Assembly (NCBI GenBank): GCA_013359345.1 | Contig: JABWCA010000006.1 | Location: 1-37,103, forward strand | Length of the DNA stretch: 37,103 bases | Source: Ignavibacteriaceae bacterium | GTDB lineage: Bacteria; Bacteroidota; Ignavibacteria; Ignavibacteriales; Ignavibacteriaceae | Direction of reading: 5' to 3' | Part shown: positions 379 through 19,890 of the stretch, in pieces | Layout: every line of letters begins with the position of its first letter | Numbering within the stretch: the first letter of the stretch is position 1 | Position numbers and translations under genes: made by a program | Notes under the pieces: generated by a model | Database searches by the model: none | What the model was told of the DNA's origin: nothing | The model's input: the letters and a program-made list of their open reading frames with translations, nothing else

Positions 379-400
379 CAAGCAACCTATTCTTCCCAAG

Positions 401-613: not shown

Positions 614-626
614 CGGAATCTCATCT

Positions 627-3152: not shown

Positions 3153-3180
3153 TTGAAATTGACGAATTTTCAACTATACT
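3153..3180 (+). promoter_or_regulatory. Candidate sigma-70 promoter of the dipeptide epimerase gene
   Basis: A -35 TTGAAA (3153-3158) and a -10 TATACT (3175-3180) are separated by 16 bp, 49 bp before the ATG at 3230. A GAGAG stretch follows at about 3220, just before the start. The boxes are good matches to a housekeeping promoter, but this is a visual match only. Confidence 0.5.
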
Positions 3181-3229
3181 GTGCGCACCAAAGTTCCCTC
3201 TGACACTTTGAACTTTAACTGAGAGTCCC

Positions 3230-4249
3230 ATGAAATTGACCATCTCCACTCGCCGGCTTGAGTTGAAACACACGTGGACCATCGCGCGCGGGTCTGCGGA
3301 TCATAAAGAATACAATTACGTCGCGCTCGAACACGAAGGCGTGACCGGTTTGGGCGAAGCGGCGCACAACGTGCGCTACGGTGAAAGCCTCGAAAGCATT
3401 CGCAAATTTCTCGAAGGCGGCCGCGCGCTTCTGCAGACCGCGGAGCCCTGGCAATTTCATGAGCTGGCACTTGCCATTCACCGGCTTGATGAAAAACAAA
3501 ATGCCGCGAAGGCCGCACTCGACATTGCGCTCATGGATTGGATCACAAAGAAACTCGATCTGCCGCTCTACCGCTTTCTCGGCTTAAATCGCGAGAAAAC
3601 GCCGGTGACGAGTTTTTCCATCGGCATTGACAAGCCCAAAGTCATGCAAGAAAAAATTCGCGCCGCGGAAGAATTTCCCATTCTTAAAATAAAACTCGGC
3701 GGCGAGCACGATGAAGAAATCATGCGCGCAGTGCGCGAGGTGACAAATTGCACGTTGCGCGTGGATGCGAACGAAGGCTGGAAGGATCGCCAACAAGCTT
3801 TGGATAAAATTTTTTGGCTCGAACAAATGGGCGTCGAGTTTGTCGAGCAGCCCATGCCCGCGGGCCGCCTCGAAGACGTGGCGTGGCTGTGGGAACGTTC
3901 GCCGCTGCCGCTGGTGGCGGATGAAGACGTGCGCACGGTGGAAGATATTCCGCAATTGGCGCAGGCTTACGACGGCCTCAATATCAAAATCATGAAAGCG
4001 GGCGGCCTGCAAGAAGGTTTACGGATGATTCACGTTGCGCGCAGTCTGGGCATGAAAATCATGCTCGGTTGTATGGTGGAAAGCTCGCTCGGTATCACCG
4101 CGGCGGCGCACCTCTCGCCGCTCGTGGATTGGGCGGATTTGGACGGCAGCTTGTTGATCAAAAATGACCCGTATCGCGGCGTGCAAGTGGAAAAGGGCAA
4201 TTTGATTTTGCCCGAGGGACCGGGACTTGGGGTGGAGGAATTGGAGTAA
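3230..4249 (+). CDS. Dipeptide epimerase (L-Ala-D/L-Glu epimerase type, enolase superfamily)
   Basis: 339 residues, full length for the family. The N-terminal capping domain (1-125) is followed by a TIM barrel carrying the muconate-lactonizing-type signature. This includes the KIK base motif (Lys153 and Lys155 in ILKIKLGG), metal ligands Asp179 (RVDANEGW), Glu206 (VEQP) and Asp231 (ADED), the second base Lys253 (NIKIMKAGG), and the DLDG motif near the C-terminus that marks dipeptide epimerases. These Mg-dependent cytosolic enzymes invert the alpha-carbon of the C-terminal residue in dipeptides, often L-Ala-D-Glu released from murein, for recycling. The exact dipeptide specificity cannot be told from sequence. 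The gene stands alone, divergent from the TonB-dependent receptor, with its own promoter-like boxes. Confidence 0.88.
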   Translation: MKLTISTRRLELKHTWTIARGSADHKEYNYVALEHEGVTGLGEAAHNVRYGESLESIRKFLEGGRALLQTAEPWQFHELALAIHRLDEKQNAAKAALDIALMDWITKKLDLPLYRFLGLNREKTPVTSFSIGIDKPKVMQEKIRAAEEFPILKIKLGGEHDEEIMRAVREVTNCTLRVDANEGWKDRQQALDKIFWLEQMGVEFVEQPMPAGRLEDVAWLWERSPLPLVADEDVRTVEDIPQLAQAYDGLNIKIMKAGGLQEGLRMIHVARSLGMKIMLGCMVESSLGITAAAHLSPLVDWADLDGSLLIKNDPYRGVQVEKGNLILPEGPGLGVEELE

Positions 4250-5038
4250 TGGAGCGCGGGAGTTTTGGGTTTGTGCGAGGAGAGTGGGCACAAGTATGAC
4301 ACTTCATTATCATTCGGGCCAAATGACCTGATTTTTTGTACAGGTGCCACGTACTTCACAAGTGCGTGGCACCTTAATTTGACCCTATTTGAAAATACCA
4401 GTTCGGTGACGCTATGATTGGCTCGGCTTTAAGTCAGATCGCTTGAAAAAAACACTTCGGTAAACAAACGGAGAACGCCCCTCGGTGCAGCAGCGACAGA
4501 ACATAAAAGCGCAAGTTAGGCTAGGCGATGAGTCTCAGAGTCATGCAGAAATGGCTGTGCTACGTTCTCCATCAATGGTCAAGGCGAGCAAAATTTCCAA
4601 TATTCGCGCTTGTGTTTCTAGCAATATTGTCGTATGATGTGTTTTACGGTAACCCTTTCGGGCAGTTTGGAAATGAACGAACTGCGGCAACGTGCGGTTA
4701 CCACGGTGGGCGCGGCGACAAAGACCGGCGCACCGAACAATTTCGTGGTTTTTGCCGAAATTCTTCTCACTTCTCATGCCGGACTTGCGCGAAGTAAGTC
4801 GTAACAGAACTCTCCTGCGGAATCCTACCGAGGCGACGGGACGAGATTTGAACTGAAGACAAAGAGATTCCCGAGCCACTATTCAATTCTTTCGCGGTTG
4901 TTCTCTGCACAGATTTGTGCTTCAAGTTTCATTTGCTGAAATGTGAAGCGTCGCAGAGGAGCGCCGTCATTACGTGATTCTGGAATGCGGAGAACTCTTT
5001 GGCCGTCAGCCAGTTTCAAAAAATTTTCTAGGAGTTTT
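4250..5038. other. Gene-poor stretch of about 790 bp
   Basis: I see no convincing gene here. It holds the palindromic repeat at 4343-4373. Two overlapping small open frames lie at 4528-4797 and 4634-4804 (the latter 56 codons, from MMCF to SKS). Neither has a recognisable domain or a good ribosome-binding site. The end of the stretch is the leader of the helicase gene, with AGGAG at 5030-5034. Degraded coding sequence is possible but not shown. Confidence 0.5.
4343..4373. repeat. Palindromic intergenic repeat (hairpin)
   Basis: GGTGCCACG and CGTGGCACC form a perfect 9-bp outer stem. The inner ACTT/AAGT also pairs across a T-G wobble, leaving a CAC loop, so the whole 31-bp unit folds into a nearly continuous 14-bp hairpin. 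There is no clear T-run after it. It resembles REP-like dispersed palindromes more than an intrinsic terminator, but only one copy is in this window. Confidence 0.6.
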
Positions 5039-6358
5039 ATGTCTTTTCAACAGTTCGGATTGCACCCGGATTTGCTCAAAGTTTTGCACAAAATCGGTTA
5101 TGAGAAGCCGACCCCGATTCAGAGAGAGGCGTTGCCCATCGCACTCACGGGCCGTGATTTGATCGGCTGCGCGCAAACGGGCACGGGCAAAACCGCGGCG
5201 TTCGCGTTGCCCATTCTCAACAAGCTGCACGGGGATTTCAGCGGCAAAACCCGCGCGTTGATTTTGACGCCCACGCGCGAGCTGGCGGCGCAAGTTCACG
5301 ACGTGTTCAAAGCGCTCGCGGCTCATTCCAAACTTTATACTGCGGCGATTTTCGGCGGCGTCGGCCAACCGCCGCAAGAGCGCGCGTTGCGCCTCGGCAC
5401 GGACGTCATCGTTGCCACGCCCGGCCGTTTGCTCGATTTGCTCAAACGCGGCGTGGGCAATTTGCGCGGCGTGGAATTTTTCGTGCTCGATGAAGCGGAC
5501 CGCATGCTCGACATGGGCTTTTTGCCCGACGTGCGCCGCATTCTTGGCTTTCTTCCAAAGAAGCGCCAAACGATGATGTTCTCCGCGACCATGCCGAAAG
5601 AGATTCTTGAACTAAGCCGCCAAATCTTGCACGAGCCGGAAATGATTCATGTGGGCCGGCAATCTGCGCCCGCGGAAGGCGTGAAGCAATCGGCCTATCC
5701 CGTTAATCAACGCCTGAAATTCGATCTGTTGCTGCACTTGTTGCGCGAGTCGCAAATGTCTTCCGTTCTGATTTTTACGCGCACGAAAATGCGCACGGAC
5801 CGCTTGGCGCGGCAGCTCAAAGACTTCGGTTTCGCCGCGGCTTGTTTGCACGGCGACCGTACGCAAGGCCAGCGCATTGCGGCATTGGAAGGTTTTCGCA
5901 GCGGCGATTATCGCATATTGGTGGCGACCGACATCGCCGCGCGCGGCATCGATATCGACGGCATTTCGCACGTGGTGAATTTCGACGTGCCGGTTGCGCC
6001 GGAAGATTACGTGCATCGCATCGGTCGCACGGCGCGCGCACGCGCTCTCGGGGAAGCGTTGACCTTGGTTTCGCCGGAGGAAGAAAGCTTCATTGTCTCC
6101 ATTCAACGCTTGACGAAAATTGAGATACCGCATCTGAAGTTATCCGACTTCGATTATCACCGGCCCGTGACGCCAAGACCGGAAGCGCCGGAGAGATTCC
6201 ATAAGCGGAAAGCAAGTCCGAAATATGAAGAGCGTTCGGCCTCACATGCGAAGCGCAACGGCTCCGCGCCACACTGGCGTCGCCGCAAGTCGCGCAACAC
6301 GGAGGGCGCGAAGCCCAAACGCCGTGTGCATGCGGCAGCTTCGCATTGGGCGAGTTGA
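5039..6358 (+). CDS. rhlE: DEAD-box RNA helicase, RhlE-like
   Basis: The start chosen is ATG 5039 (MSFQQFGLHPDLL), which has AGGAG 5 bases upstream; an in-frame start 96 bases earlier lacks this and adds an unconserved tail. This gives 439 residues with all helicase motifs. They are the Q motif (PTPIQ, about 24-28), motif I (AQTGTGKT, Lys51), PTRELA, TPGRLL, DEAD (151-154), SAT, ATDIAARGID, and HRIGRTAR from residue 326. The C-terminal 60 residues are rich in Arg and Lys (KRKASPKYEERS, then WRRRKSRN), as in RhlE proteins where the tail helps bind RNA. These ATP-dependent helicases remodel structured RNA in ribosome assembly, cold adaptation or decay. A strong intrinsic terminator follows. CsdA or SrmB types are less likely because the extension is short and there is no RNA-binding domain. 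Confidence 0.92.
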   Translation: MSFQQFGLHPDLLKVLHKIGYEKPTPIQREALPIALTGRDLIGCAQTGTGKTAAFALPILNKLHGDFSGKTRALILTPTRELAAQVHDVFKALAAHSKLYTAAIFGGVGQPPQERALRLGTDVIVATPGRLLDLLKRGVGNLRGVEFFVLDEADRMLDMGFLPDVRRILGFLPKKRQTMMFSATMPKEILELSRQILHEPEMIHVGRQSAPAEGVKQSAYPVNQRLKFDLLLHLLRESQMSSVLIFTRTKMRTDRLARQLKDFGFAAACLHGDRTQGQRIAALEGFRSGDYRILVATDIAARGIDIDGISHVVNFDVPVAPEDYVHRIGRTARARALGEALTLVSPEEESFIVSIQRLTKIEIPHLKLSDFDYHRPVTPRPEAPERFHKRKASPKYEERSASHAKRNGSAPHWRRRKSRNTEGAKPKRRVHAAASHWAS

Positions 6359-6436
6359 GCTTCGTGAATTCGTTCCGCCGCGGTTAAACCGCGCCTTTGC
6401 CGTATTCTCTTATCGGCAGAAAATTTTGATTCAAAT

Positions 6437-6472
6437 AAAAACGCCACGTCAAGTATATCACGTGGCGTTTTT
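6437..6472. terminator. Bidirectional intrinsic terminator
   Basis: A perfect inverted repeat has arms AAAAACGCCACGT (6437-6449) and ACGTGGCGTTTTT (6460-6472) around a 10-base loop. The A-run and T-run flank the GC stem, so it can stop transcription from the helicase (+) and from the kinase operon (-), which converge here. Confidence 0.85.
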
Positions 6473-6525
6473 GTTTGATTAACAGATCAAGTCACGGCCA
6501 AGCCGTGGCTGAACAATCACAAGCA

Positions 6526-7887
6526 TCAGAACCGCAGCGTGAAAACCGTCTCGGCGCCCGGAACGGATTGGACGCTGATGGTGCCGCGATGCAGCCGCAT
6601 AATTTGCCGTGACAAACTCAAACCGATGCCCGACCCGCTTTTTTTTGTAGTGAAAAATGGGATGAAGACTTTTTCCAAAACTTCGGGGAGAATGCCCGGC
6701 CCGTTGTCGGCGACCTGCACATTGACCCGCCCTCTTTCATCCAGATTGGCGCGCAGAGCAATGCGCGCATCACTTTGCTGCTCGACCGCTTGAATCGCGT
6801 TCAAGAGCAGATTGATCAACACCTGCTCGATCAAATCCGGATCCGCGGTGATCTCCAAACTCTCCGGCTCGACTTTTACCGAAAGCGCAATCGCTTTGGC
6901 GGCGACTTGTGCGCGCATCAGTTGCCGTACTTGTTCAAACAGCGACTTTACGGGGAAGATATGGAAATTGGGTTTGGGGATGCGCGTGAGATTGCGGTAC
7001 GCGTCGACGAAGTGCAAGAGGCCCTCACTGCGCTTTTGGATGGTCTGCAACGCCTCGCTCAAATCGTTGATCGTCTCCGCGTTCACTTCGTTGACACTTT
7101 TCTCGCCGTTTTCCGCGCGCGCGGTTACGAGCAAATCATTCAAAGTTGAGGCCAGCGAAGCGATGGGCGTGACCGAGTTCATGATCTCATGCGTGAGCAC
7201 GCGAATGAGGTTTTGCCACGCCTCCATTTCCTTTTCTTCCAACTCGCTTTGAATATTTTGCAAAGAGACCAGCGTGAATCTTTGCTCGCGCATTTTGAAC
7301 TCCGTGGCATAGATCGCCAATTGCAGCAGTTCGCTCTTGTCCTCGACCTTGATCAAAGCTCTTTCGCCGGATTTCATCATAAGCAATTTCTCAACGAGCG
7401 GTGTGCTCCAATTTTTAAGCGCGTGAATGTTCTTGAGATGGGGCACGCGCAACAAGCGCCGCGCTGCGGTGTTGATCAGCTCCACTTCGCCGTTTGCTTG
7501 AAAAGAAACGAGACCGATGCCGACATGCTGCATGACGGTCTGCAAATAGCGGAAGTGCTCCTCTTTGTCCGCGCGTGCGCGTTGAAACTTCGTGATCACT
7601 TCGCCGAAGGCAGTTTTCAGCTCGTCGAACGAAGATCCCAGGCCCGCGCCCGTGAAGTTCTGCGAAAAATCACTATGCTTTACGGCATCGAAAAAGCGGC
7701 TGAGATCACGATTGGTCTTTTCGACGTAGTGCAGCAACGAATAGATTTGATACAGGACGAGGGCGCCGACGATGAGGAGCGTGGCGTAGAGCGTGGTTTG
7801 AAAGAGGAGATAAAAAAATCCGAAGAGCGTGCCGCTCAACACCAGCACGCGTGCGAGCACGTTCAAGCGAAAGCGGCTAAAGACCAT
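6526..7887 (-). CDS. NtrB/NtrY-like sensor histidine kinase
   Basis: 453 residues. Two membrane segments lie at about 12-29 and 32-52 with almost no loop between them, so little is exposed outside the membrane. A linker follows, then a PAS-like domain (about 112-210), a HisKA domain with H-box LTHEIMNSVTP (His233), and an ATPase domain with GNG-type boxes (LLLNAIQAV, DNGPGILPE, FFTTKKSGSGIGLSLSRQI). The protein ends shortly after the ATPase, so there is no receiver. Kinases of this NtrB/NtrY/AtoS group phosphorylate sigma-54 activators. The gene overlaps the upstream response-regulator gene by 11 bp, which indicates translational coupling and a cognate pair. The signal is probably cytosolic or membrane-borne and is unknown. 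Confidence 0.9.
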   Translation of the reverse strand: MVFSRFRLNVLARVLVLSGTLFGFFYLLFQTTLYATLLIVGALVLYQIYSLLHYVEKTNRDLSRFFDAVKHSDFSQNFTGAGLGSSFDELKTAFGEVITKFQRARADKEEHFRYLQTVMQHVGIGLVSFQANGEVELINTAARRLLRVPHLKNIHALKNWSTPLVEKLLMMKSGERALIKVEDKSELLQLAIYATEFKMREQRFTLVSLQNIQSELEEKEMEAWQNLIRVLTHEIMNSVTPIASLASTLNDLLVTARAENGEKSVNEVNAETINDLSEALQTIQKRSEGLLHFVDAYRNLTRIPKPNFHIFPVKSLFEQVRQLMRAQVAAKAIALSVKVEPESLEITADPDLIEQVLINLLLNAIQAVEQQSDARIALRANLDERGRVNVQVADNGPGILPEVLEKVFIPFFTTKKSGSGIGLSLSRQIMRLHRGTISVQSVPGAETVFTLRF

Positions 7888-9253
7888 ATTTTTCCAATCG
7901 GCGATAAAGCGAAGTGCGAGTCAATCCCAGTTCGCGCGCGGCCTGGCTGATGTTGCCGCCGTGCTTGCTGATCGTCTTGCGAATGACGGCCTTCTCCACT
8001 TCCTCCAAATTATAATTGTCGAATACCAAGCCGTCTTCCCGGCTTTCCGATGCGACGAGCAGAAAATCCGTGGGCTGCAACACCTGCGTTTCGCCCATAA
8101 TCACCGCGCGCTCGAGCGCGTGTTGCAGCTCGCGCACGTTGCCGGGCCAGTGATATTTTTCAAGCTTCTTCAGCGTGGCCGCATTCACGCGCGGCAACGG
8201 CTTCTGATATTTCTTCGCATAAGCTTTGAGAAAATGTTCGACCAGCAACGGAATATCCTCGGTGCGCTCGCGCAACGGCGGGACGTGAATTTCGACCGTG
8301 TTAATGCGATACAGCAAATCCTGCCGAAATCTTTTCTGCGTTACCATTTCGTGAATCGGCAGGTTCGTCGCACAGATCAAGCGGATATCAATTGGTCGCG
8401 GTTGATTGGAACCCAAGCGCACGATCTGGCGGTTTTGCAGCACGGTGAGCAGTTTGGCTTGCAGGGGTAAAGAAAGATTGCCGATCTCGTCGAGGAAAAG
8501 CGTTCCACCCGAAGCGGCTTCAAATCGGCCGGCGCGTTCCTCCTTCGCGTCCGTGAAAGCACCCTTCATGTGTCCGAACAGCTCGCTCTCAAATAATGTC
8601 TCGCTGAGCGCGCCCATATCGACGCTGATAAAAACTTCCTGCTTGCGTTTCGATTGGCGGTGCAGCTCGCGCGCAATCAGCTCTTTGCCCGTGCCGTTCT
8701 CGCCGAGAATCAGCACGTTCGCCTCGGTCTGCGCCACTTTCTGAATCGTGCTGAAAACCCTTTGCATGGCTGCACACGCACCCACGAAATCTTGAAATTG
8801 CTGATCAAGCTCCGCGCTCAACACCTGCTGCCGCGAGCGCAAGTGATCGACCTCCGCACGCGATTGCCGCAGGTTCATCGCTGCGGAGAGCGTGGCGAGC
8901 AGTTTTTCATTCTGCCACGGCTTGAGCACGAAATCCATCGCGCCTTGTTTGATGGCATTCACAGCCATTTCCACGTCGCCGAACGCAGTGATCAACACCA
9001 CGACCGCGGAAGGATCGATGGTGAGAATTTGATTGAGCCAGTGAAAGCCTTCGGCGCCACCGCTGGCGTCGCGCGTGAAATTCATGTCGAGCAGTATAAC
9101 ATCGTAGCTTTCGTTCTTCAGTAGGGTCAGAATCAATTGCGGATTTTTTTCGGTGTGCACCAGCGCCACATGCTGCTTGAGAAACATGCGCGCCGCCACG
9201 AGCACGTCTTCGTCGTCATCGATAACCAGAATCTTGCCGAGCTTTTTGGTCAT
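7877..9253 (-). CDS. NtrC-family sigma-54-dependent response regulator
   Basis: 458 residues from the ATG at 9253, which has AGGAA 7 bases upstream; an in-frame start 33 bases earlier is less likely. The receiver domain (about 7-125) has phospho-acceptor Asp56 (LLDMNF) and the acidic IDDDED pocket. An AAA+ domain follows, with Walker A GENGTGKE (184-191) and the sigma-54 contact loop GAFTDA (231-236) in place of the usual GAFTGA. LFLDEIG, the Walker B region, and the RxDLLYR arginine-finger region are also present. A Fis-type helix-turn-helix closes the protein (GGNISQAARELGLTRTSLYRRL). It would activate RpoN-dependent promoters on phosphorylation by the overlapping kinase. The targets are not visible, and I saw no clear GG-N10-GC site upstream. 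Confidence 0.93.
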   Translation of the reverse strand: MTKKLGKILVIDDDEDVLVAARMFLKQHVALVHTEKNPQLILTLLKNESYDVILLDMNFTRDASGGAEGFHWLNQILTIDPSAVVVLITAFGDVEMAVNAIKQGAMDFVLKPWQNEKLLATLSAAMNLRQSRAEVDHLRSRQQVLSAELDQQFQDFVGACAAMQRVFSTIQKVAQTEANVLILGENGTGKELIARELHRQSKRKQEVFISVDMGALSETLFESELFGHMKGAFTDAKEERAGRFEAASGGTLFLDEIGNLSLPLQAKLLTVLQNRQIVRLGSNQPRPIDIRLICATNLPIHEMVTQKRFRQDLLYRINTVEIHVPPLRERTEDIPLLVEHFLKAYAKKYQKPLPRVNAATLKKLEKYHWPGNVRELQHALERAVIMGETQVLQPTDFLLVASESREDGLVFDNYNLEEVEKAVIRKTISKHGGNISQAARELGLTRTSLYRRLEKYGL

Positions 9254-9310
9254 GGGAATTTCCTGTGAGCTTACCTCGGAAAACAATCACCATTGCGAGG
9301 TTTGGGTAGC

Positions 9311-9327
9311 GCAGGCAACATGCCTGC
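9311..9327. repeat. Short intergenic hairpin
   Basis: GCAGGCA-ACA-TGCCTGC is a perfect 7-bp stem with a 3-base loop, in the divergent region upstream of the two-component operon. There is no T-run, so it is not a terminator. It may be a fragment of a dispersed repeat. Confidence 0.4.
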
Positions 9328-9458
9328 TAAACTCGCAAGCCGGAAGTCTACGCTCTGCGTTCGAATCGCCTACCAGCAATTTAATCGCACACGGCAAAAA
9401 AGCAATGGCGCTTTGTTAAGGGAAGTGCGAGGCTGTGTACGCACGAAAATCAAAAATT

Positions 9459-9474
9459 CCTCGCGACCGCGAGG
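9459..9474. promoter_or_regulatory. Candidate autoregulatory operator of the vapBC-like module
   Basis: CCTCGCGACCGCGAGG is a 16-bp interrupted palindrome (7-bp arms, 2-base spacer). It ends one base before the -35 box of the promoter that faces the antitoxin gene. TA antitoxin-toxin complexes usually repress their own promoter through such sites. Binding is inferred, and the antitoxin has no obvious DNA-binding motif. Confidence 0.4.
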
Positions 9475-9475
9475 C

Positions 9476-9504
9476 TTGACTATGGCGCACGGGTTGTCTA
9501 TTTT
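9476..9504 (+). promoter_or_regulatory. Sigma-70-type promoter of the vapBC-like module
   Basis: The -35 TTGACT (9476-9481) and -10 TATTTT (9499-9504) are spaced by 17 bp, close to the bacterial consensus, and lie 61 bp upstream of the antitoxin ATG at 9566. Confidence 0.6.
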
Positions 9505-9565
9505 GAGACATAAATAGAGCTCAGAAGGTTGCTGATCTCTTATAACTTTAGTTGAGGTTGTCATC

Positions 9566-9817
9566 ATGTCTACGCTCGTCACCTCTCCACACTACCAACA
9601 CGTTTTGCATCAAATTGCTAATCTATCTTGGGAAGAACAACTGCGCCTGATCGGCGAAATCTCCCTCACGCTGCGCAGAAGAATCCCCACGTTAGCTAGC
9701 CCTCTTTTTCCACAAGCCGACATTGTCACAACGGTAAAGGGAAAGTATGCCTCCATACCGACAAGCAGCGATTTATTCGCGCAAAGAAAAGTCCAGGAAA
9801 TCGAGATGGAACGGTAG
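9566..9817 (+). CDS. Putative antitoxin of a VapBC-like pair
   Basis: 83 residues. No domain is certain. The N-terminal half is a likely amphipathic helix pair (HYQHVLHQIANLSWEEQLRLIGEISLTL, given here as one region, residues 9-36). The short LSWEEQLRLI motif is typical of small antitoxins found beside PIN toxins in cyanobacteria and environmental FCB genomes. The C-terminal half is hydrophilic and probably unstructured when free, as expected for a toxin-wrapping tail. It ends 3 bp before the PIN toxin gene, has a good promoter and a GAGG ribosome-binding site, and appears intact. The role comes from position more than sequence. Confidence 0.6.
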   Translation: MSTLVTSPHYQHVLHQIANLSWEEQLRLIGEISLTLRRRIPTLASPLFPQADIVTTVKGKYASIPTSSDLFAQRKVQEIEMER

Positions 9818-9820
9818 AGT

Positions 9821-10226
9821 ATGATAAAAGTGCTCGATGCTTGTGCTATGATCGCATACTTGCGAGGAGAGCCTGGGGCGGAGATTGTAGAAGCGCTGTT
9901 GCTCGACAAAAGCAACCAATGTTTGGCGCACGTTGTTAATTTGTGTGAAGTCTACTACGATTTTTTACGAGCAAAAGATGAAGCCTCTGCTCTTGGCGCC
10001 ATCGCCTACTTAAACTCGGTCGGAGTCATTGCTCGCGACGATATTGATACACAATTTTGGCAAGACGCAGGCAAACACAAAGCGACAATAAAAAAAGATT
10101 TCTTTTGCGGATTGCTTCGCTCTGACTTTGGCCAATCGGATGCAAGCAGAGCTCGTGAGGTCGGATCATCATGAGTTTGATGCAGTCGTGGAAAAGGGAT
10201 ACTGCCCAGTGCTGTTCATACGTTAA
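9821..10226 (+). pseudogene. vapC: Frameshifted VapC-like PIN-domain toxin
   Basis: The first frame runs from MIKVLDACAMIAYLRGEPGA to KATIKK. From there the PIN fold continues one frame over as ISFADCFALTLANRMQAELV and on to PVLFIR, ending at TAA 10224-10226. Dropping one A from the A7 run at 10090-10096 restores a 134-residue protein. In that protein all four acidic residues of the PIN active site are present: Asp6, Glu43 (NLCEVYY), Asp97 (FADCF) and Asp115 (SDHHEFD). VapC proteins are Mg-dependent endoribonucleases, often cutting tRNA. As written, the protein lacks its last two catalytic acids and should be inactive. The cause could be a true frameshift, slippage at the A-run, or a homopolymer sequencing error. 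The gene sits 3 bp after its antitoxin. Confidence 0.87.
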
Positions 10227-10244
10227 ACCAAGCCGCTTATCGTT

Positions 10245-10481
10245 ATGATCAGAAAACAAATTCCAGATCGCCTCACCGCCCAATCTCTTTCTGAGATTCC
10301 GCAATTCGCCTCCGAAGATGAAGAACGGGAATGGTGGACGACTCATGATTTAGCCCCCGAGCTTGGCGAGGACGTGACGGAGCAAGAGCGCGCTTTGACG
10401 CAAGAGCCCAAAGCCAAGTATCGCTACGTGCCTTCGCAAGTCGGTTCCAAGCAAACTACGAAAGAACTTTTGCAAACCTGA
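10245..10481 (+). CDS. Small hypothetical protein with CopG-antitoxin-like N-terminus
   Basis: 78 residues. IPQFASEDEEREWWTTHDL (residues 18-36) closely resembles the N-terminal motif of CopG-type antitoxins (FKSEDEEREFWxTHD). The ribbon-helix-helix that should follow is missing; instead there is an acidic then basic tail with no recognised fold. It begins 18 bp after the vapC remnant, without a clear ribosome-binding site. It may be a fragment left from a third TA module or a short adaptor. No toxin-like gene follows before the composition change. Confidence 0.45.
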   Translation: MIRKQIPDRLTAQSLSEIPQFASEDEEREWWTTHDLAPELGEDVTEQERALTQEPKAKYRYVPSQVGSKQTTKELLQT

Positions 10482-10570
10482 ACCTCAACGACAACCAATC
10501 ATTCACCGGCACAACTTCGATTCAACCTCTTCGCACGCCTGGTCATGAATCACCCAACGGAGGGAGAAGC

Positions 10571-10615
10571 ATGGCCCGCAAGATTTCTCCGGCCAAAATT
10601 CTCGGCGCGGGCTGA
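10571..10615 (+). pseudogene. Truncated gene start at the composition junction
   Basis: A strong ribosome-binding site, GGAGGG (10559-10564), stands 6 bases before ATG 10571. The frame reads MARKISPAKILGAG and then stops at TGA 10613, just where the sequence turns AT-rich. It looks like the first codons of a longer GC-rich gene cut at the junction. I cannot identify the gene. A genuine 14-residue leader peptide is the less likely alternative. Confidence 0.4.
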
Positions 10616-10749
10616 ATACGGGATAATGTAAAATGATGTCCGTTCTGCCGGCAGGAAGATGCGGTTTTTTATAATACAGAGATGAATTTATTATTGGTGT
10701 TTATGCAGAGCGCCTTTGCAGTGCTTACTTTCTGCGGAGGGCTGATAAC
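10596..10749. other. Composition and gene-style junction
   Basis: Left of about 10,610 the DNA is GC-rich. Right of about 10,620 it is AT-richer and all genes have Ignavibacteria-like features. The interval has no gene of its own apart from the cut reading frame above. A 10-bp palindrome, CTGCCGGCAG, lies at 10645-10654. I see no transposase, tRNA or direct repeat that would explain an insertion. Confidence 0.65.
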
Positions 10750-11169
10750 TCAGATTGAATACATCTGAATAATATCTTCGGGGAGTCTTACGGGTCTTCC
10801 TGATTTAAGGGAGAGCATTGTGTAGTTAAAATGCCCCTCGGCGGCAACTTTCATTCCGTCTTTCTTGTATATAATGAAGTCAACCAGGCACTGGGCCCCG
10901 TTATATGAATTAACTCCTGTTTCAACAACGGCCACATCCTCAAGCCTGAGTTCCCGTTTAAAGGATATCTTCAGATCTGAGACCACCCAGGTGAGATCCC
11001 TTTTCCAGAACTCTTCCATCGACATTTTATAGAACTCCCTCATCTGCATATATCTTGCAGCGAGGACGTAATCAAGGTACTTGGTGAAATGGACATGGTT
11101 GTTGACATCTATGTCATCGGGGCGCACGGTTATTTCGCTTCTGAACCGTGAAAATTTCTGTTCTGACAT
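10750..11169 (-). CDS. Acyl-CoA thioesterase, YbgC/FadM-like hotdog fold
   Basis: 139 residues, the usual single-hotdog length. The active-site segment RPDDIDVNNHVHFTKYLDY (residues 16-34, catalytic Asp21 and the NNHVH turn) and the later VVSDLKISFKRELRLED strand match 4-hydroxybenzoyl-CoA thioesterase-family enzymes. These hydrolyse acyl-CoA or acyl-ACP thioesters in the cytosol. The chain length and the true substrate cannot be predicted. Its ATG overlaps the stop of the upstream response-regulator gene by one base (TAATG), so the two are translated together. The pairing of a thioesterase with a receiver protein is unusual. Confidence 0.85.
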   Translation of the reverse strand: MSEQKFSRFRSEITVRPDDIDVNNHVHFTKYLDYVLAARYMQMREFYKMSMEEFWKRDLTWVVSDLKISFKRELRLEDVAVVETGVNSYNGAQCLVDFIIYKKDGMKVAAEGHFNYTMLSLKSGRPVRLPEDIIQMYSI

Positions 11170-11855
11170 TACTCTGCTTTTTCTCCATGCTCAGGCGGCG
11201 TATCAATATCGATCATTTTGATATCTCTCACGTAATTTGAGATCTGCGGGCGCTGAATCTCCTTGAGCTGATTGAGGATATCATTGACCTCCTCAACTGC
11301 GCTTTCAATGTAGTCAATCCGCTTTTCGTATGATTGTCTTGAAAATTCAGGTTTGCCGAGTTCTCTTCTGAGAGCCGAGATGGCGAGTTTAATAACGGTA
11401 AGGGGTTGTTTTATTTTATGGTTTGCGGTAACCACTGTGGCGGCGTAAATGCTTAGTTTTTCTGATTCTATGATGGCAAGCTGGGCATCGCGGAATCTGA
11501 GGGCAGATCTTATTCTTGCGATGATCTCCACTCTTTCAAACGGCTTTTTAATGTAATCAAAGGCGCCGGCCTGCAGACCCTGTTTTGCCTCTTCGGGTGA
11601 AACCTTTGCGGTTACTATGATAACGGGGATGTTAAGGGTCTGTTCATCCTTTTTAAGAATTTCAAGTACATCAAGTCCGGTCATTCCGGGGAGCATGATA
11701 TCAAGCAGTATCAGGTCGGGTTTTTCATTTCTTGAAATAGTCAGCCCGTCCTCACCGTTCAGAGCAGTGAAAACGTTGTAACCCTCCTTCTTCAGAATGA
11801 GTTCAAGGAACTTGACATTCTGCATATTATCATCCACGACCAGAATTGAGTACAT
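11169..11855 (-). CDS. Response regulator: receiver fused to a HisKA-like dimerisation helix region, no ATPase
   Basis: 228 residues. The receiver (about 1-120) is complete: acidic pocket VVDDN, phospho-acceptor Asp52 (LLDIMLPG), Thr82 and Lys104 (YIKKPF). After a helix (121-135), residues 136-205 resemble a kinase dimerisation/phosphotransfer region. The H-box-like TANHKIKQPLTVIKL contains His146, followed by a long second helix. The ATP-binding domain expected next is absent; the protein ends in a short acidic tail. It could act as a phosphotransfer hub, a kinase-binding decoy or simply a diguanylate-type regulator whose output is protein binding. No DNA-binding domain is present. The gene overlaps the thioesterase gene by one base. 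Confidence 0.8.
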   Translation of the reverse strand: MYSILVVDDNMQNVKFLELILKKEGYNVFTALNGEDGLTISRNEKPDLILLDIMLPGMTGLDVLEILKKDEQTLNIPVIIVTAKVSPEEAKQGLQAGAFDYIKKPFERVEIIARIRSALRFRDAQLAIIESEKLSIYAATVVTANHKIKQPLTVIKLAISALRRELGKPEFSRQSYEKRIDYIESAVEEVNDILNQLKEIQRPQISNYVRDIKMIDIDTPPEHGEKAE

Positions 11856-11948
11856 AGTACCGGGCCTTTGCTATTAAATATTAACTAAAGAACGCACCCG
11901 TTAAATTAAGGGATATCTCACTTAAAAATAACAAAAAAATATTTAAGA

Positions 11949-12797
11949 TCAGTTGACCGCCACAGAAATTTCAACAATTTCGGGCTTGCCTTCCCAGAGA
12001 AGAAGTTTAACCTTTCCCTCTTTCTCATTTATCTCCCAGAGCACCCCATTTTTAACTCTTCCGCCCGGTTTCAGGATGTAAAGCTCGTCATCCTCATTAA
12101 CAAAATGCGCCCCGGCTTCTGAAAATTTAATCAGCGTGAGCCCCGCGGCATCAGGCGGATCCTTGGCAAAGAAGCCATACCCGTAAAAAATATCGGCTGA
12201 TCCCGGAAGTCCTGTGTTAACCGGTTTATAACCGCTTCTGAACTGCTTATAGAGTGAATCATCAACGGCATAAAGTGTGATTCTCCCCTCAAGATAAAGT
12301 CTTGAACTGCTTATCAGGTTATCTTTATTGTCATCTGACTTAATGATGCCAAGTGAATCTGCCGAAATAAGGAACCGGCTCCCTGAAAGATTATCAAGCA
12401 GCGAGAATAATTCCCTGGTCTGTAGTGAGGCTTTGATCCTGAAGGGATAAGTTTTCATAAAACCATGCACAGATGCCTGAAGCGGCACAACTTCATGATA
12501 AGAGGTTACAGGGCTTATGGTCCGCGAGATGATATCCTGAATGAAAGCTGCGGCCTCCTTCCGGTTTCCGCTGAAAAGAAGCGGGGTGTTTGCGGTCTGC
12601 TTCCCGTAATATTTTATATATGCTGCCTGCCTCAGAGATCCGGGATCCAGAACGCCGAACTGCTCTCTTTCTCCCGAAGCAAGCACAAGATTATAGATTC
12701 CTCCTGAAACTGCCGCAAGGCTAAATATTATCAGAGCCGCCAGAATGATAATCAGGTTTCTGCCGCGGGATAAATAATAGCGGGGTAAATTGTTCAT
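11949..12797 (-). CDS. Inner-membrane protein, GspM/PilO-like
   Basis: 282 residues. A short cytosolic N-terminus with Arg residues precedes one membrane helix (about 14-36); the rest is periplasmic. Residues 75-175 (PLQASVHGFMKTYPFRIKAS, then FSLLDNLSGSRFLISADSLG) read like the ferredoxin-like alpha/beta domain of PilO/GspM. The last 50 residues form a small beta-rich module (LKPGGRVKNGVLWEINEKEG) that recalls PilP. These proteins form the inner-membrane platform linking ATPase to pilus or pseudopilus in type IV pili and type II secretion. The call depends on topology, weak motif resemblance and the paired GspL-like gene. The start overlaps the upstream stop (TGATG). No pilin, secretin or ATPase gene is in view. 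Confidence 0.5.
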   Translation of the reverse strand: MNNLPRYYLSRGRNLIIILAALIIFSLAAVSGGIYNLVLASGEREQFGVLDPGSLRQAAYIKYYGKQTANTPLLFSGNRKEAAAFIQDIISRTISPVTSYHEVVPLQASVHGFMKTYPFRIKASLQTRELFSLLDNLSGSRFLISADSLGIIKSDDNKDNLISSSRLYLEGRITLYAVDDSLYKQFRSGYKPVNTGLPGSADIFYGYGFFAKDPPDAAGLTLIKFSEAGAHFVNEDDELYILKPGGRVKNGVLWEINEKEGKVKLLLWEGKPEIVEISVAVN

Positions 12798-13939
12798 CAG
12801 AACTCCCCCGTAAAAAGGAAAAACTCGGTGCCTTCAAATCTGAGAGTCCTGATCTTTGAGATTCTGAAATCAGCAACTTTATCCGTTATTCTGAATATAT
12901 TATCACGTGAGTTTGTGTAGCCCTCCAGCAAAAAGTTATTTCCCGAGCATGAGAGGGTATTGATCCAGGTTGAATCAAACTCAGCAATAACCGGTATGAA
13001 CTGCCTGAGGCGCAGGGCGGTTTCGGTGAGGGAGGTCACCGCGGCTATGGAGTCGGTATATTCAGCCGGAGTCAGGCCTTTTTGTTTGAGCCAGGGGTGC
13101 AGAGTTCTGAGGTCAGTTGTTTCACTCAGAGCGAGTGCCGCCTCGGCGTTATTCTGTTGCACGCTTAAAAGTGAGTTGTATGCTCCGGCCAAAAAGATAA
13201 ATGAAACTGTAAACGCGGCGAGAGCATATTTTATATATTTTATTGTCTGAGACTGTCTGCCAAGAACTTTCTTTAATTCAGCAAAATGAGAGTTCTGATC
13301 AGTTGTGAGCGATGCGCCGGTGATGAAGGATAAAAAAGGAACATAATTATCATTCAGTCCGTTAAAAGACTTTCGGTTAGTCAGAACTTTTATTTTCGGA
13401 GGATTATCAGACGAACTGAATTCAGCATTGATTTCAGCAGCAAGAGATTCATCTGTAATTATAAGATCTGAATGAAATCTCATCAGAAGTGATGAAGCAA
13501 GTCCCGGAGAGTGCACAAGAACTTTTTGCACGGCATGATTTTCGATCAGAAAAACAGCTTTTTCATTAAAATAGATCACGCGGTCATCAGGAAAAAAATT
13601 GAAGAGTTCAATAAGCCTTGATGCAATGACCGATGAAAGATCTGCCTCACCTGATATCTCTGCAAAGGGAATTCTGAGATCACCTGCAAGCTGCAGAACC
13701 GAGGCCGAGATAAAATCTCTGTTCAATTTTATGAGGCCGTTATCAGAGCCGGGCCTGAGGTCATCATAAACAATCAGCAGTTTTGTGCGGGCGCAGCCTT
13801 TAAGCACTTTGGTGTGATCTTTCTGATAGCTTTTATCCTTTATGACGTCATAAGGCACAAAACTTTCGTTAAGCGAACTTTTTCTGAGGCAAAAGACATG
13901 AATCCCTTTTGACGCCGGCAAAAATATTGTTAAATTCAT
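12797..13939 (-). CDS. Membrane protein, GspL/PilM-PilN-like
   Basis: 380 residues. Residues 1-230 are cytosolic and soluble, with alternating strands and helices that could be a reduced actin-like (PilM/GspL cytoplasmic) domain, though nucleotide-binding motifs are not obvious. A single membrane helix follows at about 237-257 (YALAAFTVSFIFLAGAYNSLL). A periplasmic PilN-like coiled segment and a small alpha/beta domain end the protein (WINTLSCSGNNFLLEGYTNS, IRTLRFEGTEFFLF). This cytosolic-TM-PilN order is that of GspL or a PilM-PilN fusion. The next gene, joined by a one-base overlap, looks like the matching GspM/PilO. It starts divergent from the lipoprotein gene with 106 bp between. Function in pili or secretion is inferred. 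Confidence 0.5.
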   Translation of the reverse strand: MNLTIFLPASKGIHVFCLRKSSLNESFVPYDVIKDKSYQKDHTKVLKGCARTKLLIVYDDLRPGSDNGLIKLNRDFISASVLQLAGDLRIPFAEISGEADLSSVIASRLIELFNFFPDDRVIYFNEKAVFLIENHAVQKVLVHSPGLASSLLMRFHSDLIITDESLAAEINAEFSSSDNPPKIKVLTNRKSFNGLNDNYVPFLSFITGASLTTDQNSHFAELKKVLGRQSQTIKYIKYALAAFTVSFIFLAGAYNSLLSVQQNNAEAALALSETTDLRTLHPWLKQKGLTPAEYTDSIAAVTSLTETALRLRQFIPVIAEFDSTWINTLSCSGNNFLLEGYTNSRDNIFRITDKVADFRISKIRTLRFEGTEFFLFTGEF

Positions 13940-14045
13940 TGATCTGTGAGTAATTGCTTTCTTTAACTGAACAAAATATAGTAAATTCAGACACTTATCT
14001 GAAAAAATTAATTATTAATTAAACTAACCTGGAGCACGAAAGATA

Positions 14046-14498
14046 ATGAAAAAAATTTCTCTCGTATTATTCCTCATGCTCGGTCTCTTTATAGGCTGCG
14101 GCAAAAAAGAAAAACCCGAGGAACCGAAGAAAGAACCAGTAAAAACTGAAACCAAAGCTGACAGCGTTGCAAAAGAACCGGAAATGAAATTACCGGTACT
14201 TGAAGGAACCTGGGCAGGCGGTATCGGGCAGTATCCTGTTACCCTTACTCTTAATGCAATCAAGAATGATGAAGAGGTAACCGGTAAAGTCGTTATAAGT
14301 TTCAGAAATCCTGTCTCTTATTCAGTAAAAGGCACATATGCCTATAAGACAGGCCAGATGACCCTCACAGATGCTGACGGAATCAGAAGCGGCGGCAGTT
14401 TCAGCGGCACCGTAAGCGAAGACGGAAAAACTTTTTCAGGCACATATACCGAAACGGTATCAAAGGTGTCTTCAGCTTTTAACTTAACAAAAAAATAA
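14046..14498 (+). CDS. Small lipoprotein of unknown function
   Basis: 150 residues. A signal peptide with lipobox LFIGC (lipidated Cys18) is followed by a Lys/Glu/Pro-rich linker (19-50) and a beta-rich domain (about 52-150). That domain opens with LEGTWAGGIGQYPVTLTLN and repeats GSFSGTVSEDGKTFSGTY-like strands. Such short up-and-down beta domains in FCB lipoproteins often bind small ligands or act as inhibitors, but I recognise no specific family. The next gene, another lipoprotein, begins 20 bp later and is probably co-transcribed. Confidence 0.8.
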   Translation: MKKISLVLFLMLGLFIGCGKKEKPEEPKKEPVKTETKADSVAKEPEMKLPVLEGTWAGGIGQYPVTLTLNAIKNDEEVTGKVVISFRNPVSYSVKGTYAYKTGQMTLTDADGIRSGGSFSGTVSEDGKTFSGTYTETVSKVSSAFNLTKK

Positions 14499-14517
14499 AA
14501 AACACACAGGAGAATAA

Positions 14518-15465
14518 ATGCTTAAAAGATTATTATTAAGCTCAATTTTAATTGCAGCAGGATTTTTTTACACCGGCTGCGATGAAACAAATAACCCCGT
14601 AACCGCAAACAAGGGAAAAGTTTTTATAACTTCAACCCCCTCTGCAGCACAGATTTTTGTTAACGGCGTTAACCAGAGTAAAGTTACACCCGATACTCTT
14701 TCACTTGATGCCGGCACATACCAGATCACACTGAAAAAATCACCCTTTAAGGATACAACATTTTCAGTTACGGTAACAGCAAATCAGACAATCACCAGAG
14801 CCATCACAATGTCAGAAGGCGGTTTTGTTCTGGTTTCAACACCTTCAGGCGCTGCAATTGCACTTGACGGTTCAAACACCGGATTCTCAACTCCTGCAAG
14901 AGTTACACTGGCAGGCACATCAAACTTCACCATCACCCTTACAAAAGAGGGTTATATGGATACAACTTTCACAGTTAATCCTTCAACAGTTGGTGACACA
15001 CTTAAAATTACACTTACCTCCGCTCTCGTTACATACGGACCGGTAAAAATTTATGAATCTGCTGCCCCGCTGGCTTCACAGCCTTCAGGACTTATCTTCA
15101 AGACAGGTCAGGCTTCTTCAATCTCAAGCGGCAACAGACTTCTTGTTGATGTATGGTACAGCACAGCCGGATACCTTATTGCATCAGCTGATCAGTGGTC
15201 AGGACTCTCAAGAGTAACTTACATGAAAGTCGGCGGAAGCACAAATCTTAGTGACGGTGTTGCTTCATCCACCAAAGATAACTCATGGGTTAAGAGTGTT
15301 GCAGATACTCAGAACAATTACATCTTTGCTTATGACAATGACGGTAATTACACCAAGTTCAAAATTGTCGGCAGAGGCGGCGGAACCAGCCTTGCAGATC
15401 CTGCATGGGTTGAAATTCAGCTGATCTACAACAAAAAAGTAAACGATAAAGGTTTTGGTAACTAA
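14518..15465 (+). CDS. Lipoprotein with two PEGA domains
   Basis: 315 residues. The signal peptide ends in a lipobox FYTGC (Cys21). Two PEGA-type beta domains follow. In the first, about 33-98, FITSTPSAAQIFVNG leads to TPDTLSLDAGTYQITLKK. In the second, about 100-165, LVSTPSGAAIALDGSNTG leads to TPARVTLAG. The C-terminal 140 residues are a further beta-rich domain (VDVWYSTAGYLIASADQW, then YIFAYDNDGNYTKFKIVG) that resembles a HmuY-like or ligand-binding fold only weakly. PEGA domains are thought to anchor surface proteins to the cell wall or to carbohydrates. The gene probably forms an operon with the preceding lipoprotein and ends in a strong terminator. Confidence 0.85.
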   Translation: MLKRLLLSSILIAAGFFYTGCDETNNPVTANKGKVFITSTPSAAQIFVNGVNQSKVTPDTLSLDAGTYQITLKKSPFKDTTFSVTVTANQTITRAITMSEGGFVLVSTPSGAAIALDGSNTGFSTPARVTLAGTSNFTITLTKEGYMDTTFTVNPSTVGDTLKITLTSALVTYGPVKIYESAAPLASQPSGLIFKTGQASSISSGNRLLVDVWYSTAGYLIASADQWSGLSRVTYMKVGGSTNLSDGVASSTKDNSWVKSVADTQNNYIFAYDNDGNYTKFKIVGRGGGTSLADPAWVEIQLIYNKKVNDKGFGN

Positions 15466-15475
15466 ACCATTTTAT

Positions 15476-15505
15476 AAAGCCCGCCGCCCGGCGGGCTTTT
15501 TTTTT
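15476..15505 (+). terminator. Intrinsic terminator after the lipoprotein operon
   Basis: AAAGCCCGCCG and CGGCGGGCTTT pair around a very short centre (15476-15499), and the stem runs into an uninterrupted T-run to about 15505. It lies 11 bp after the PEGA lipoprotein stop. Confidence 0.9.
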
Positions 15506-15573
15506 AGTGTTTAAATGGGTATTTTAAATTTTTAATACTTAGCATTAACTGAATTAATTTACCCGCACCGGAT

Positions 15574-17658
15574 ATGAAGCCTTTGTTAAAAGTTATCTGT
15601 CTGCTTATTACCCTTTCTTCTGCTGCGCTGCCTCAGTCACAGGCTTCTGATATTGACAGCCTTCTTAAGGCTCTTCCTCTCAAAGCAGGTGAGGAGAAAC
15701 TGCGAATACTTATTAATATCTGCGCTGAATATCAGTACAAACCTGAGCTTGGCATAGACTATGCAAAGCAGGCTCTTGAGCTTGCAACAAGGGAGAATAA
15801 CGCAAGATACACAGGCTGGGCACTGTTCCAGATGGGGAATATGTATCAGTCATGGGACAGCCTCAAAATTTCGATGGATTATTACATGCAGGCTCTTGAG
15901 TATGCCCATAAAGTGCGTGATTCGGTTCTGATAACCAATGTTTACAATAATTCAGGGGTGATTTATAAAGCCTGGGGCAGCTATAACAGGGCACTTGAAA
16001 GTTATACCAACGTTTTCCGGTTCCAGTTAAAAGGAAGCACGGAAGATGAGCTGATCCCGGTTATGTATAATATCGGTATAGTGCAGTCCCTTATCAAAGA
16101 TTATAACTCAGCCTTAAAATCCTATCTTGAATGCCTCCGCCTCCTTGAAAAATATCCCATACCTTTTGGATTCATTGCCGTGAACACCGCTGTGGGCGAT
16201 ATTAAAAAGGATCTTGCTGATTACCAGTCGGCCGAAAAATATTACAAGGCAGCAGAATCATTCCTTGACGCTGAAAACAATGATTACCTCCGGATAAAGG
16301 TTTATCTGCAGCTTGCAGATCTGTACAGAAAAATGAAGAATAAAGATCTTGCGCTTGATTATGCGGGAAAAGCGCTTAAGATTCAGAATGACAAACCCGA
16401 TGCCGACGGACAGGCAGACCTGACAATGGGGGCTATCTTTAAGGAATTCCGGCAGTTTAAAGAGGCGCTTGTTTATTTCAGAAAATCTCTGGCAACTTAC
16501 GAAAAGCTGGGTTACAATGCCGAGGCTGTTGAGGCCATTGAGTACCTGGCAGATACTTACTATAGTACAGGAGAGTATAAGCTCGCGTATGATTATAAAA
16601 TGAGGGGCGCAGTTCTGAAAGACAGCATTTATAATCAGGACAAGCTGAAAGAAATTGATATTGTGAGGGCACAGTTTGAACTTGATCATAAAAATGAACA
16701 GCTGATTTATCTGCAGCAGAAATCAAGCCTTCAGGAGCTCAGGCTGAATAATCAGTCAAATATTATGACGTTCTTTGCCTTCGGTATTATTATTTTATCC
16801 GGTTTTGTTATTGCGCTGGTGTATTTCAATAATACAAAGAAAAAGCTGAACATCAGACTCGGAATAAAGCAGAAACAGATAGAGACGCATCTTGCCGGGC
16901 TTGAGGAGCAGAATAATCAGATTCAGCTGCAGCATTCAAAGCTTGAAGATTATGCCGCAAAGCTTAAAAAATCAAATCAGGCCAAAGAAAAGTTTCTTTC
17001 AATTATTGCACATGACCTCAAAAATCCCGTCCATTTTATTATGAATGCCTCAGAAATACTTGAAGATGATTACGGAGATTTAACTGATGGTGAGAGAAGT
17101 GACCTGATTCACCGGCTTAAACAGTCAAGCAGACTTAGCGCCGAACTTCTGCAGGATCTCCTTACATGGGCTCAGAACAGTATGGATATGATGGAGTTCA
17201 ATCCCGTTGCGTTTGCCGTTGAAAAAGAAGCTGAATCGATAATCGCACTTCTTGAACATTCTGCAAAAGCAAAAGATATCAGGATCAGTATGAAGGCAGA
17301 ACCCGGAATAACAGCAATGGCAGATACTGCCATGATAAATACCGTTATGAGAAATCTGATAACAAATGCCGTGAAATTTACAAAACCGGGTGGCATTATA
17401 GTTGTTGAAATTAAGAAAATTAATGATTCGGTTCTGGTGAGTGTCAATGATAACGGGGTGGGGATGAGTGATGATGATGTTGATAAGCTTTTCAGGATTG
17501 ACGTAAAGCATAGCAAAAAAGGAACAATGGAAGAGGCCGGCACGGGGCTCGGACTCATAATCTGCAAAGAATTTATTGAAAGAAACGGCGGAGTGCTTTC
17601 GGTAAAAAGCCGGCTCAATGAAGGAACGTCAATCAGCTTTACCCTCCCTTCAGCATAA
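15574..17658 (+). CDS. TPR-containing sensor histidine kinase, copy 1
   Basis: 694 residues. A signal peptide (1 to about 25) is followed by a periplasmic array of tetratricopeptide repeats (about 40-365), such as NVYNNSGVIYKAWGSYNRAL and KVYLQLADLYRKMKNKDLAL. A coiled linker leads to one membrane helix (about 397-418), then a cytosolic coiled coil, a HisKA domain with H-box IIAHDLKNPVHF (His480), and a HATPase domain with N-box NLITNAVKF, DNGVGM and GTGLGLIICKEF. There is no receiver. Such kinases in Bacteroidota-type bacteria sense a protein or peptide partner through the TPR array. No regulator gene adjoins it, so its partner is elsewhere. It is followed 156 bp later by a close paralogue. 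Confidence 0.92.
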   Translation: MKPLLKVICLLITLSSAALPQSQASDIDSLLKALPLKAGEEKLRILINICAEYQYKPELGIDYAKQALELATRENNARYTGWALFQMGNMYQSWDSLKISMDYYMQALEYAHKVRDSVLITNVYNNSGVIYKAWGSYNRALESYTNVFRFQLKGSTEDELIPVMYNIGIVQSLIKDYNSALKSYLECLRLLEKYPIPFGFIAVNTAVGDIKKDLADYQSAEKYYKAAESFLDAENNDYLRIKVYLQLADLYRKMKNKDLALDYAGKALKIQNDKPDADGQADLTMGAIFKEFRQFKEALVYFRKSLATYEKLGYNAEAVEAIEYLADTYYSTGEYKLAYDYKMRGAVLKDSIYNQDKLKEIDIVRAQFELDHKNEQLIYLQQKSSLQELRLNNQSNIMTFFAFGIIILSGFVIALVYFNNTKKKLNIRLGIKQKQIETHLAGLEEQNNQIQLQHSKLEDYAAKLKKSNQAKEKFLSIIAHDLKNPVHFIMNASEILEDDYGDLTDGERSDLIHRLKQSSRLSAELLQDLLTWAQNSMDMMEFNPVAFAVEKEAESIIALLEHSAKAKDIRISMKAEPGITAMADTAMINTVMRNLITNAVKFTKPGGIIVVEIKKINDSVLVSVNDNGVGMSDDDVDKLFRIDVKHSKKGTMEEAGTGLGLIICKEFIERNGGVLSVKSRLNEGTSISFTLPSA

Positions 17659-17814
17659 ACAGGGATCCGTTCTGATATCTTGTGACGTTTAATGCATTAA
17701 TATTTCATCAAAAAAAATCGTGCCGCCGCCTTTCTTCCAGCCCCTTTGATACCTGAAAACTTGTTTTTTCAGTGTTAATTTCTGATCTTATATAAATAAT
17801 CATCCGGTTTTAGA

Positions 17815-19890
17815 ATGTTTTTAATATTAATTTTGCTCGGGCTGTTATTTACCCCCGCTGAGCTTTATCCTCAGGATTCAAAAACGGACTCCCTTCTGAA
17901 GCTTTTGCCCAAAACCTCGGGCGAAAAGAAACTTGAAGTGCTTATCAATCTGTGCGCTGCAAACCAGTATAATCCTAAGGAAGGATTAAAGTACGCAGCA
18001 GAGACCCTGGAATACGCAAAAGATCAAAACAATAAATCATACATAGCCAAAGCACTGTTTCAGCATGGCAATATGTACAATACTCTTGACAGTTTTACCA
18101 CTGCCATGAAATACTATACTGAATCATTGAATATAGCCCGCAGTGTGAATGATTCGGTTACCATGAGTGATAATTATAATAATATGGGGGTGATCTACAA
18201 AATATGGGGAAGCTATACCAAAGCGCTTGAATCATATAATAATGCCTACTACCTGTTAAAAAACCTTGGCCATACAGAAAGACTGCTCCCCATTGTATAT
18301 AATTCGGGATTGATACAGTATAATCTTGGTGATTACGAAGGAGCGAAAAAATCATTCAGCAGATGTTTTGAGATGCTTGAAGTCAGTCCGTCTGATTTCG
18401 GGAATGTGGTCGTAAACCTTGCAATGGGCGATGCCTGCAACCAGAGCGGAGATTATCCGGGTGCCGAAAAATATTACATGGCATCAGAGTCATTTCTTGA
18501 GAAAGCCGGGAATGACTATCTGACAATTAAAGTAAGCCTGCAGCAGGCAGATTTTTACAGGAAGATCAAAAATAAGGATAAGGCTCTTGAGTATGCACGT
18601 AAGGCCCTTGAGCTTAACAGCTCCAAGCCCGGTGCAACGGGGGATGCCGATGCCGTGATGGGGAGCATTTATCTCGATTTCAATGAGCCTGATAAAGCTG
18701 CAGAGTTTTTTCAGAGATCAAAGATGCTCTATGAAAAACTGGGTTACAGTTCCGAGCTCGCAGAAGTGATAAAAAAACTTTCGGAAGCATACAGGCTCAG
18801 GGGTGATTACAAAACCGCTTATGAATATCTCACCAAATACACCGAGATGAGGGATTCAATTCTTTCACAGGATAAACTGAAAGAAATTGATATTGTACGG
18901 GCGCAGTTTGAGCTTGACCATAAAAATGAACAGCTCATCTTTCTTCAGCAGAAATCAGATCTTCAGGAGCTTAAGATTCAGAATCAGTCGAATATAATGA
19001 TGTTTTCCGCCTTCGGTATAATCATATTATCCGGGTTCCTGATTGCGCTCATCTATTTTAATAATACAAAAAAGAAGCTTAACGCCAGACTTGAAGAGAA
19101 AAAGAAGCAGATTGAGTATAACCTGACAGAACTTGAGAACCAGAACATCTATATACAGAATCAGAACCGGAAACTCGGGGAGTATGCTGATGAGCTGAAA
19201 AAATCAAACCAGTCAAAAGAGAAGTTTCTCTCCATAATAGCCCACGATCTTAAAAACCCGGTGCATTTTATAATGAATGCCTCTGAGATACTCGAGGATG
19301 ATTTTGGTGAACTGACTGAAGAGGAAAGATCTGATCTGATACACCGGCTCCGGCAGTCAAGCAGACTTAGCGCTGAACTGCTGCAGGATCTCCTTACCTG
19401 GGCACAGAATAATATGGGGATGATGGAATTTAACCCGACAGAGATTTTGCCCGAAAATGAAATTAATTCTGTGATATCTCTTCTCATGCATTCTGCGGAA
19501 AATAAAAATATCAGCATCAATATTTCAGCAGAACCCGGTATAAAGGTAAGGGGAGATAAATCAATGATTGATACGGTTATAAGAAACCTGATCTCAAACA
19601 GCATCAAGTTCACGAGGCCGGGAGGAAACATTGATGTAATTGTTCAGAGAAGCGGAAATGATGCTCTGATCACGGTAAAAGACAACGGAACAGGAATGGG
19701 ACAGGAAGAAATGTCCAGACTGTTCAGGATAGATGTCAAACAGACCACGAAAGGAACAAATGATGAGGGAGGCACGGGTCTGGGCCTGATTATCTGCAAA
19801 GAGTTTGTTGAAAGAAACGGCGGAACCATATCTGTTAAAAGCAGGAAGAATGAGGGTACCGAAATAAGTTTCACAGTACCGCTCGCATAA
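17815..19890 (+). CDS. TPR-containing sensor histidine kinase, copy 2 (tandem paralogue)
   Basis: 691 residues with the same plan: N-terminal signal segment (MFLILILLGLLFTPAEL), periplasmic TPRs (about 38-365), a membrane helix near 395-415, a coiled coil, HisKA with H-box IIAHDLKNPVHF (His477) and HATPase (NLISNSIKF, DNGTGM, GTGLGLIICKEF). From KLKEIDIVRAQFELDHKNEQ through the membrane helix and the H-box region it is almost identical to copy 1, while the TPR sensor halves share only scattered residues. It therefore arose by duplication, with the input side diverging. Identical dimerisation helices would allow mixed dimers. No response regulator is adjacent. The 156-bp gap from copy 1 has no terminator that I can see. 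Confidence 0.92.
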   Translation: MFLILILLGLLFTPAELYPQDSKTDSLLKLLPKTSGEKKLEVLINLCAANQYNPKEGLKYAAETLEYAKDQNNKSYIAKALFQHGNMYNTLDSFTTAMKYYTESLNIARSVNDSVTMSDNYNNMGVIYKIWGSYTKALESYNNAYYLLKNLGHTERLLPIVYNSGLIQYNLGDYEGAKKSFSRCFEMLEVSPSDFGNVVVNLAMGDACNQSGDYPGAEKYYMASESFLEKAGNDYLTIKVSLQQADFYRKIKNKDKALEYARKALELNSSKPGATGDADAVMGSIYLDFNEPDKAAEFFQRSKMLYEKLGYSSELAEVIKKLSEAYRLRGDYKTAYEYLTKYTEMRDSILSQDKLKEIDIVRAQFELDHKNEQLIFLQQKSDLQELKIQNQSNIMMFSAFGIIILSGFLIALIYFNNTKKKLNARLEEKKKQIEYNLTELENQNIYIQNQNRKLGEYADELKKSNQSKEKFLSIIAHDLKNPVHFIMNASEILEDDFGELTEEERSDLIHRLRQSSRLSAELLQDLLTWAQNNMGMMEFNPTEILPENEINSVISLLMHSAENKNISINISAEPGIKVRGDKSMIDTVIRNLISNSIKFTRPGGNIDVIVQRSGNDALITVKDNGTGMGQEEMSRLFRIDVKQTTKGTNDEGGTGLGLIICKEFVERNGGTISVKSRKNEGTEISFTVPLA

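Follow-up and report, generated by a model that had tools for sequence, protein, structure and literature searches.

An Ignavibacteria contig that very probably joins DNA from a KSB1-like bacterium to a native segment

Misassembly is named as one of the principal though rarer types of error in metagenome-assembled genomes (MAGs) in the GUNC paper's account of chimeric contigs, where fragments from multiple sources are wrongly assembled and one contig comes to carry two lineages (PMC8201837). The window analyzed here, which is the entire 37,103-bp contig C445 of a draft Ignavibacteria genome (G000; 4.26 Mb in 454 contigs), resembles such contigs in carrying two lineages. It also resembles genomic islands and integrative elements with direct repeats, with which it shares foreign DNA and a short repeat at the boundary. 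In C445, unlike in the chimeras of that account (PMC8201837), the true neighbor that was displaced and the short overlap where the arms meet could both be identified. Unlike a genomic island or integrative element, its foreign arm has no mobility gene or second boundary among the sequences searched and carries ordinary KSB1-like chromosomal genes. We conclude that C445 is very probably a chimeric contig, in which a 10.6-kb piece of KSB1-like bacterial DNA was joined onto 26.5 kb of Ignavibacteria sequence, and that the switch is an artifact rather than biology (Table 1). Bin statistics for the draft genome (99.4% complete, 1.35% contaminated) gave no hint of it.

Table 1. Features of contig C445 on either side of the join and across it
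Feature	Position	Strand	Basis or remark
Foreign left arm, KSB1-like bacterium	1..10607	.	Composition (see text); proteins matching those of KSB1 or KSB1-like MAGs best
Start of left-arm ORF, ribosome-binding site and ATG, MARKISPAKILGAG then stop	10572..10616	+	Cut by the join; stop codon within right-arm sequence
Junction overlap with the terminal 46 bp of G000:C70	10584..10629	+	41/46 identical; last 22 (10,608-10,629) exact
Native right arm (Ignavibacteria MAG G000), continuing into C70 and not into the left arm	10608..37103	.	Composition (see text); thioesterase and AspRS best in family; synteny
Acyl-ACP thioesterase / 4HBT-family protein, first gene right of the join	10750..11169	-	Pfam PF01643/PF13279
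Response regulator, synteny marker	11169..11855	-	Pfam PF00072; 61% identity; order kept in L069 and L070

The initial annotation had proposed an abrupt switch of composition and lineage near 10.61 kb, and this was confirmed by the composition of the two arms and by the lineages of the proteins on either side. GC content was 53.8% at positions 1-10,600 compared to 43.1% at 10,631-37,103. As a baseline for the genome we used sampled contigs (17 stretches besides the window, C70 included), 16 of which had ~41-46% GC and the remaining one 38.4%. Tetranucleotide (TUD) signatures separated the arms as well, with a correlation of r = 0.12 between the left arm and the rest of the genome, r = 0.86 between the right arm and the genome's other contigs and r = 0.02 between the two arms. 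Stretches of up to 10.6 kb from other contigs reached r = 0.57-0.76 against the genome, and C70 carries the genome's signature (r = 0.74). To place the change-point without using genes, we computed order-3 and order-4 Markov log-odds, with the genome's other contigs as one training set and the left arm plus two KSB1-lineage loci as the other, and both maxima fell at 10,609. Based on GC alone, the best change was at 9,493, with 10,610 nearly equal; because the final 1.3 kb of the left arm (9,300-10,600) is already down to 48.8%, GC by itself is a blunt locator of the switch. The earlier description of a GC-rich style ending at ~10,610 needs one correction, in that the style is already fading from ~9.5 kb.

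The left arm encodes a TonB-type outer-membrane protein, an Ala-Glu-epimerase-like enzyme, a DEAD-box helicase, a histidine kinase, an NtrC-type regulator, a VapBC remnant and the truncated ORF. In a scan of a genome collection, the histidine kinase matched Bin_13 (L079) at 70% identity, a MAG labeled Latescibacterota (L080) at 69% and candidate division KSB1 (L081) at 68%, and the adjacent NtrC regulator reached 79-81% identity at each of these three loci. The helicase was 73% identical in the genome of L081 and 70% in that of L079, compared to 39% in two genomes of the Ignavibacteria family, and the epimerase was 64% identical in the genome of L081 compared to 44-45% in family genomes. The draft genome has its own helicase on C167 and its own epimerase on C206, whose identities to their left-arm counterparts are 49% and 45%, respectively. 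The fading stretch from ~9.5 kb also belongs to the left lineage, because 450 bp of it (9,731-10,181, within the VapBC region) match the KSB1 genome of L081 at 70% DNA identity. This was the only good match found when we sought the arm's native continuation in KSB1 genomes, and the final 400 bp did not match well there.

Two observations concern the genes themselves. The VapBC-like pair (9566-10226) consists of an antitoxin-like ORF at 9566-9817 and a PIN toxin from 9821, whose reading frame is interrupted near 10,100; its probable C-terminal part lies at 10,128-10,226 in a different frame, through either a frameshift or a sequencing error. The kinase and NtrC-type regulator (6526-9286) are adjacent across many phyla, including KSB1, Latescibacterota, Calditrichia, Cloacimonadota and some Ignavibacteria, and the top NCBIfam model was PEP-CTERM response regulator, with a score under the cut-off.

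Both arms could in principle belong to one genome, with the switch reflecting natural heterogeneity such as an old genomic island. The occurrence of the kinase-regulator pair in some members of the same order (kinase identity 47-56%) would fit this, but these resemble the left-arm pair less closely than the KSB1 copies do, the tetranucleotide signature is wholly different between the arms and the native neighbor C70 is displaced; we regard a single origin as extremely improbable.

On the right of the join, the thioesterase and AspRS matched best in the Ignavibacteria family, so that the comparison of taxa suggested by the initial annotation separated the two sides. The thioesterase had same-family matches of up to 63% identity (G008, G034 and G024). 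AspRS was 73-79% identical in four family members compared to 53-63% outside the family, where the values included 63% in the genome of L100 (labeled Ignavibacteriales) and 57% in the KSB1 genome G104/L081.

The right arm's neighbor could be recognized from gene order. C70, a 6,132-bp contig from the bin of C445, has a CxxCH cytochrome gene as its final gene. In the relatives G008 (six contigs) and G034 (~20 contigs), at loci L069 and L070, the cytochrome gene lies ~90 bp from the thioesterase gene in convergent orientation and is followed by the same response regulator, with homologues of the window genes at 14,046 and 14,518 further along. These relatives share one genus, and the synteny evidence therefore counts as one lineage. 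Because the order of cytochrome, thioesterase and response regulator is kept in them, C70 natively leads into the window at 10,630, and C445 carries the left arm where C70 belongs.

As first described, a ribosome-binding-site-like stretch and an ATG are present just left of the join, in a frame that stops after 14 codons. A DNA search of the same genome with the junction recovered one other site, the final 46 bases of C70 (L051, 6087-6132). Upstream of the exact 22-mer, 19 of 24 bases also agree, which would have P ~4e-8 by chance if the 22-mer alone had been selected; a pure 22-mer collision is therefore an incomplete explanation. The 46-bp similarity would be explained by a mismatch-tolerant overlap of ~46 bp or by an element truly common to both organisms. 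Further copies of the junction sequence were absent from two KSB1-lineage genomes and the 22-mer from viral contigs; the join had no match in phage records, and there were no repeats within 10,400-10,900. No RNA fold at the join was more stable than those of shuffled sequences, and no Rfam family matched. We also considered a dispersed repeat or REP-like element and rejected it, since the sequence has two copies in the genome, with no third, and did not recur in 394 further genomes of the phylum. The similarity beyond the 22-mer corresponds to no known repeat family, and the version on C70 holds a perfect palindrome, TTCAGCCCGGGCTGAA.

What is found at C445 is what marks a chimera: the two parts of the contig come from different lineages, the real neighbor of the right arm is on a separate contig that ends at the join and a short common sequence (22 bp exact, 41/46 overall) lies there. 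A repeat copy on C70 is, however, compatible with integration as well as with a chimera, and only one boundary of any island lies within the window. If KSB1-derived DNA had truly integrated at an intergenic site of the Ignavibacteria chromosome, the attachment or target site would now be present twice, as the 22-bp exact (46-bp imperfect) repeat, with C70 as the left flank and 10,608 onward as the right flank, and the resulting geometry (C70, repeat, then repeat, right arm) is that left by site-specific integration. We nonetheless consider real integration very unlikely. No tRNA was found in the left arm, and no integrase, transposase or relaxase Pfam family was detected among the left-arm proteins scanned, in agreement with the initial annotation, which had seen no transposase, tRNA or integrase at the edge. 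All placed left-arm genes are ordinary KSB1-like genes that in part duplicate functions the genome has, and the signature of the arm has not ameliorated toward that of the host. Any island would have its other end outside the contig; no contig of the bin was found to overlap the left arm at its far end, hence no other boundary was seen. A recent transfer between phyla, by which the Ignavibacteria chromosome received 10.6 kb or more of KSB1-type chromosomal DNA at an imperfect 46-bp site, would call for a recombination system of unrecognized kind, and we give it a very slim chance. The initial annotation had preferred an assembly chimera to a recent insertion of foreign DNA, a preference strongly supported by the change-point, the tetranucleotide signature, the lineages on each side and, foremost, C70 and the gene order in two relatives.

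The wrong join was presumably made during assembly. In the real genome, C70 would run into the 46-bp stretch and on through window positions 10,630 to 37,103. A 10.6-kb KSB1-like piece, presumably from the same sample, would have ended in sequence that shares 41 of 46 positions with the terminus of C70, and this short match may have been entered from the wrong side, by the assembler or when contigs were merged later, so that C70 came to a dead end. Alternatively, the chimera could stem from a library molecule produced by ligation or template switching rather than from assembler error, and similarity local to the join would favor template switching. We consider this unlikely, since a lone chimeric molecule seldom out-competes true reads in assembly and the end of C70 exactly where the shared 22 bp stop bears a closer resemblance to a branch in the graph or overlaps. 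The significance of a chimeric C445 is for quality control only: this Ignavibacteria genome should not be taken to encode the genes at 1-10,607, and, provided that reads agree, C70 should be reattached at position 10,630. Unless corrected, the contig would resemble a striking inter-phylum gene transfer.

Finally, the proposal that T9SS-sorted proteins are confined to the right of the join was borne out in the proteins tested, as three proteins of the right arm and one of C70 carry the T9SS sorting domain TIGR04183, which was absent from the single left-arm outer-membrane protein tested. Elsewhere in the right arm, the ORFs at 15574-17658 and 17815-19890 are adjacent and similar, with histidine-kinase-like C-terminal parts and repeat-rich N-terminal halves, apparently the result of tandem duplication.
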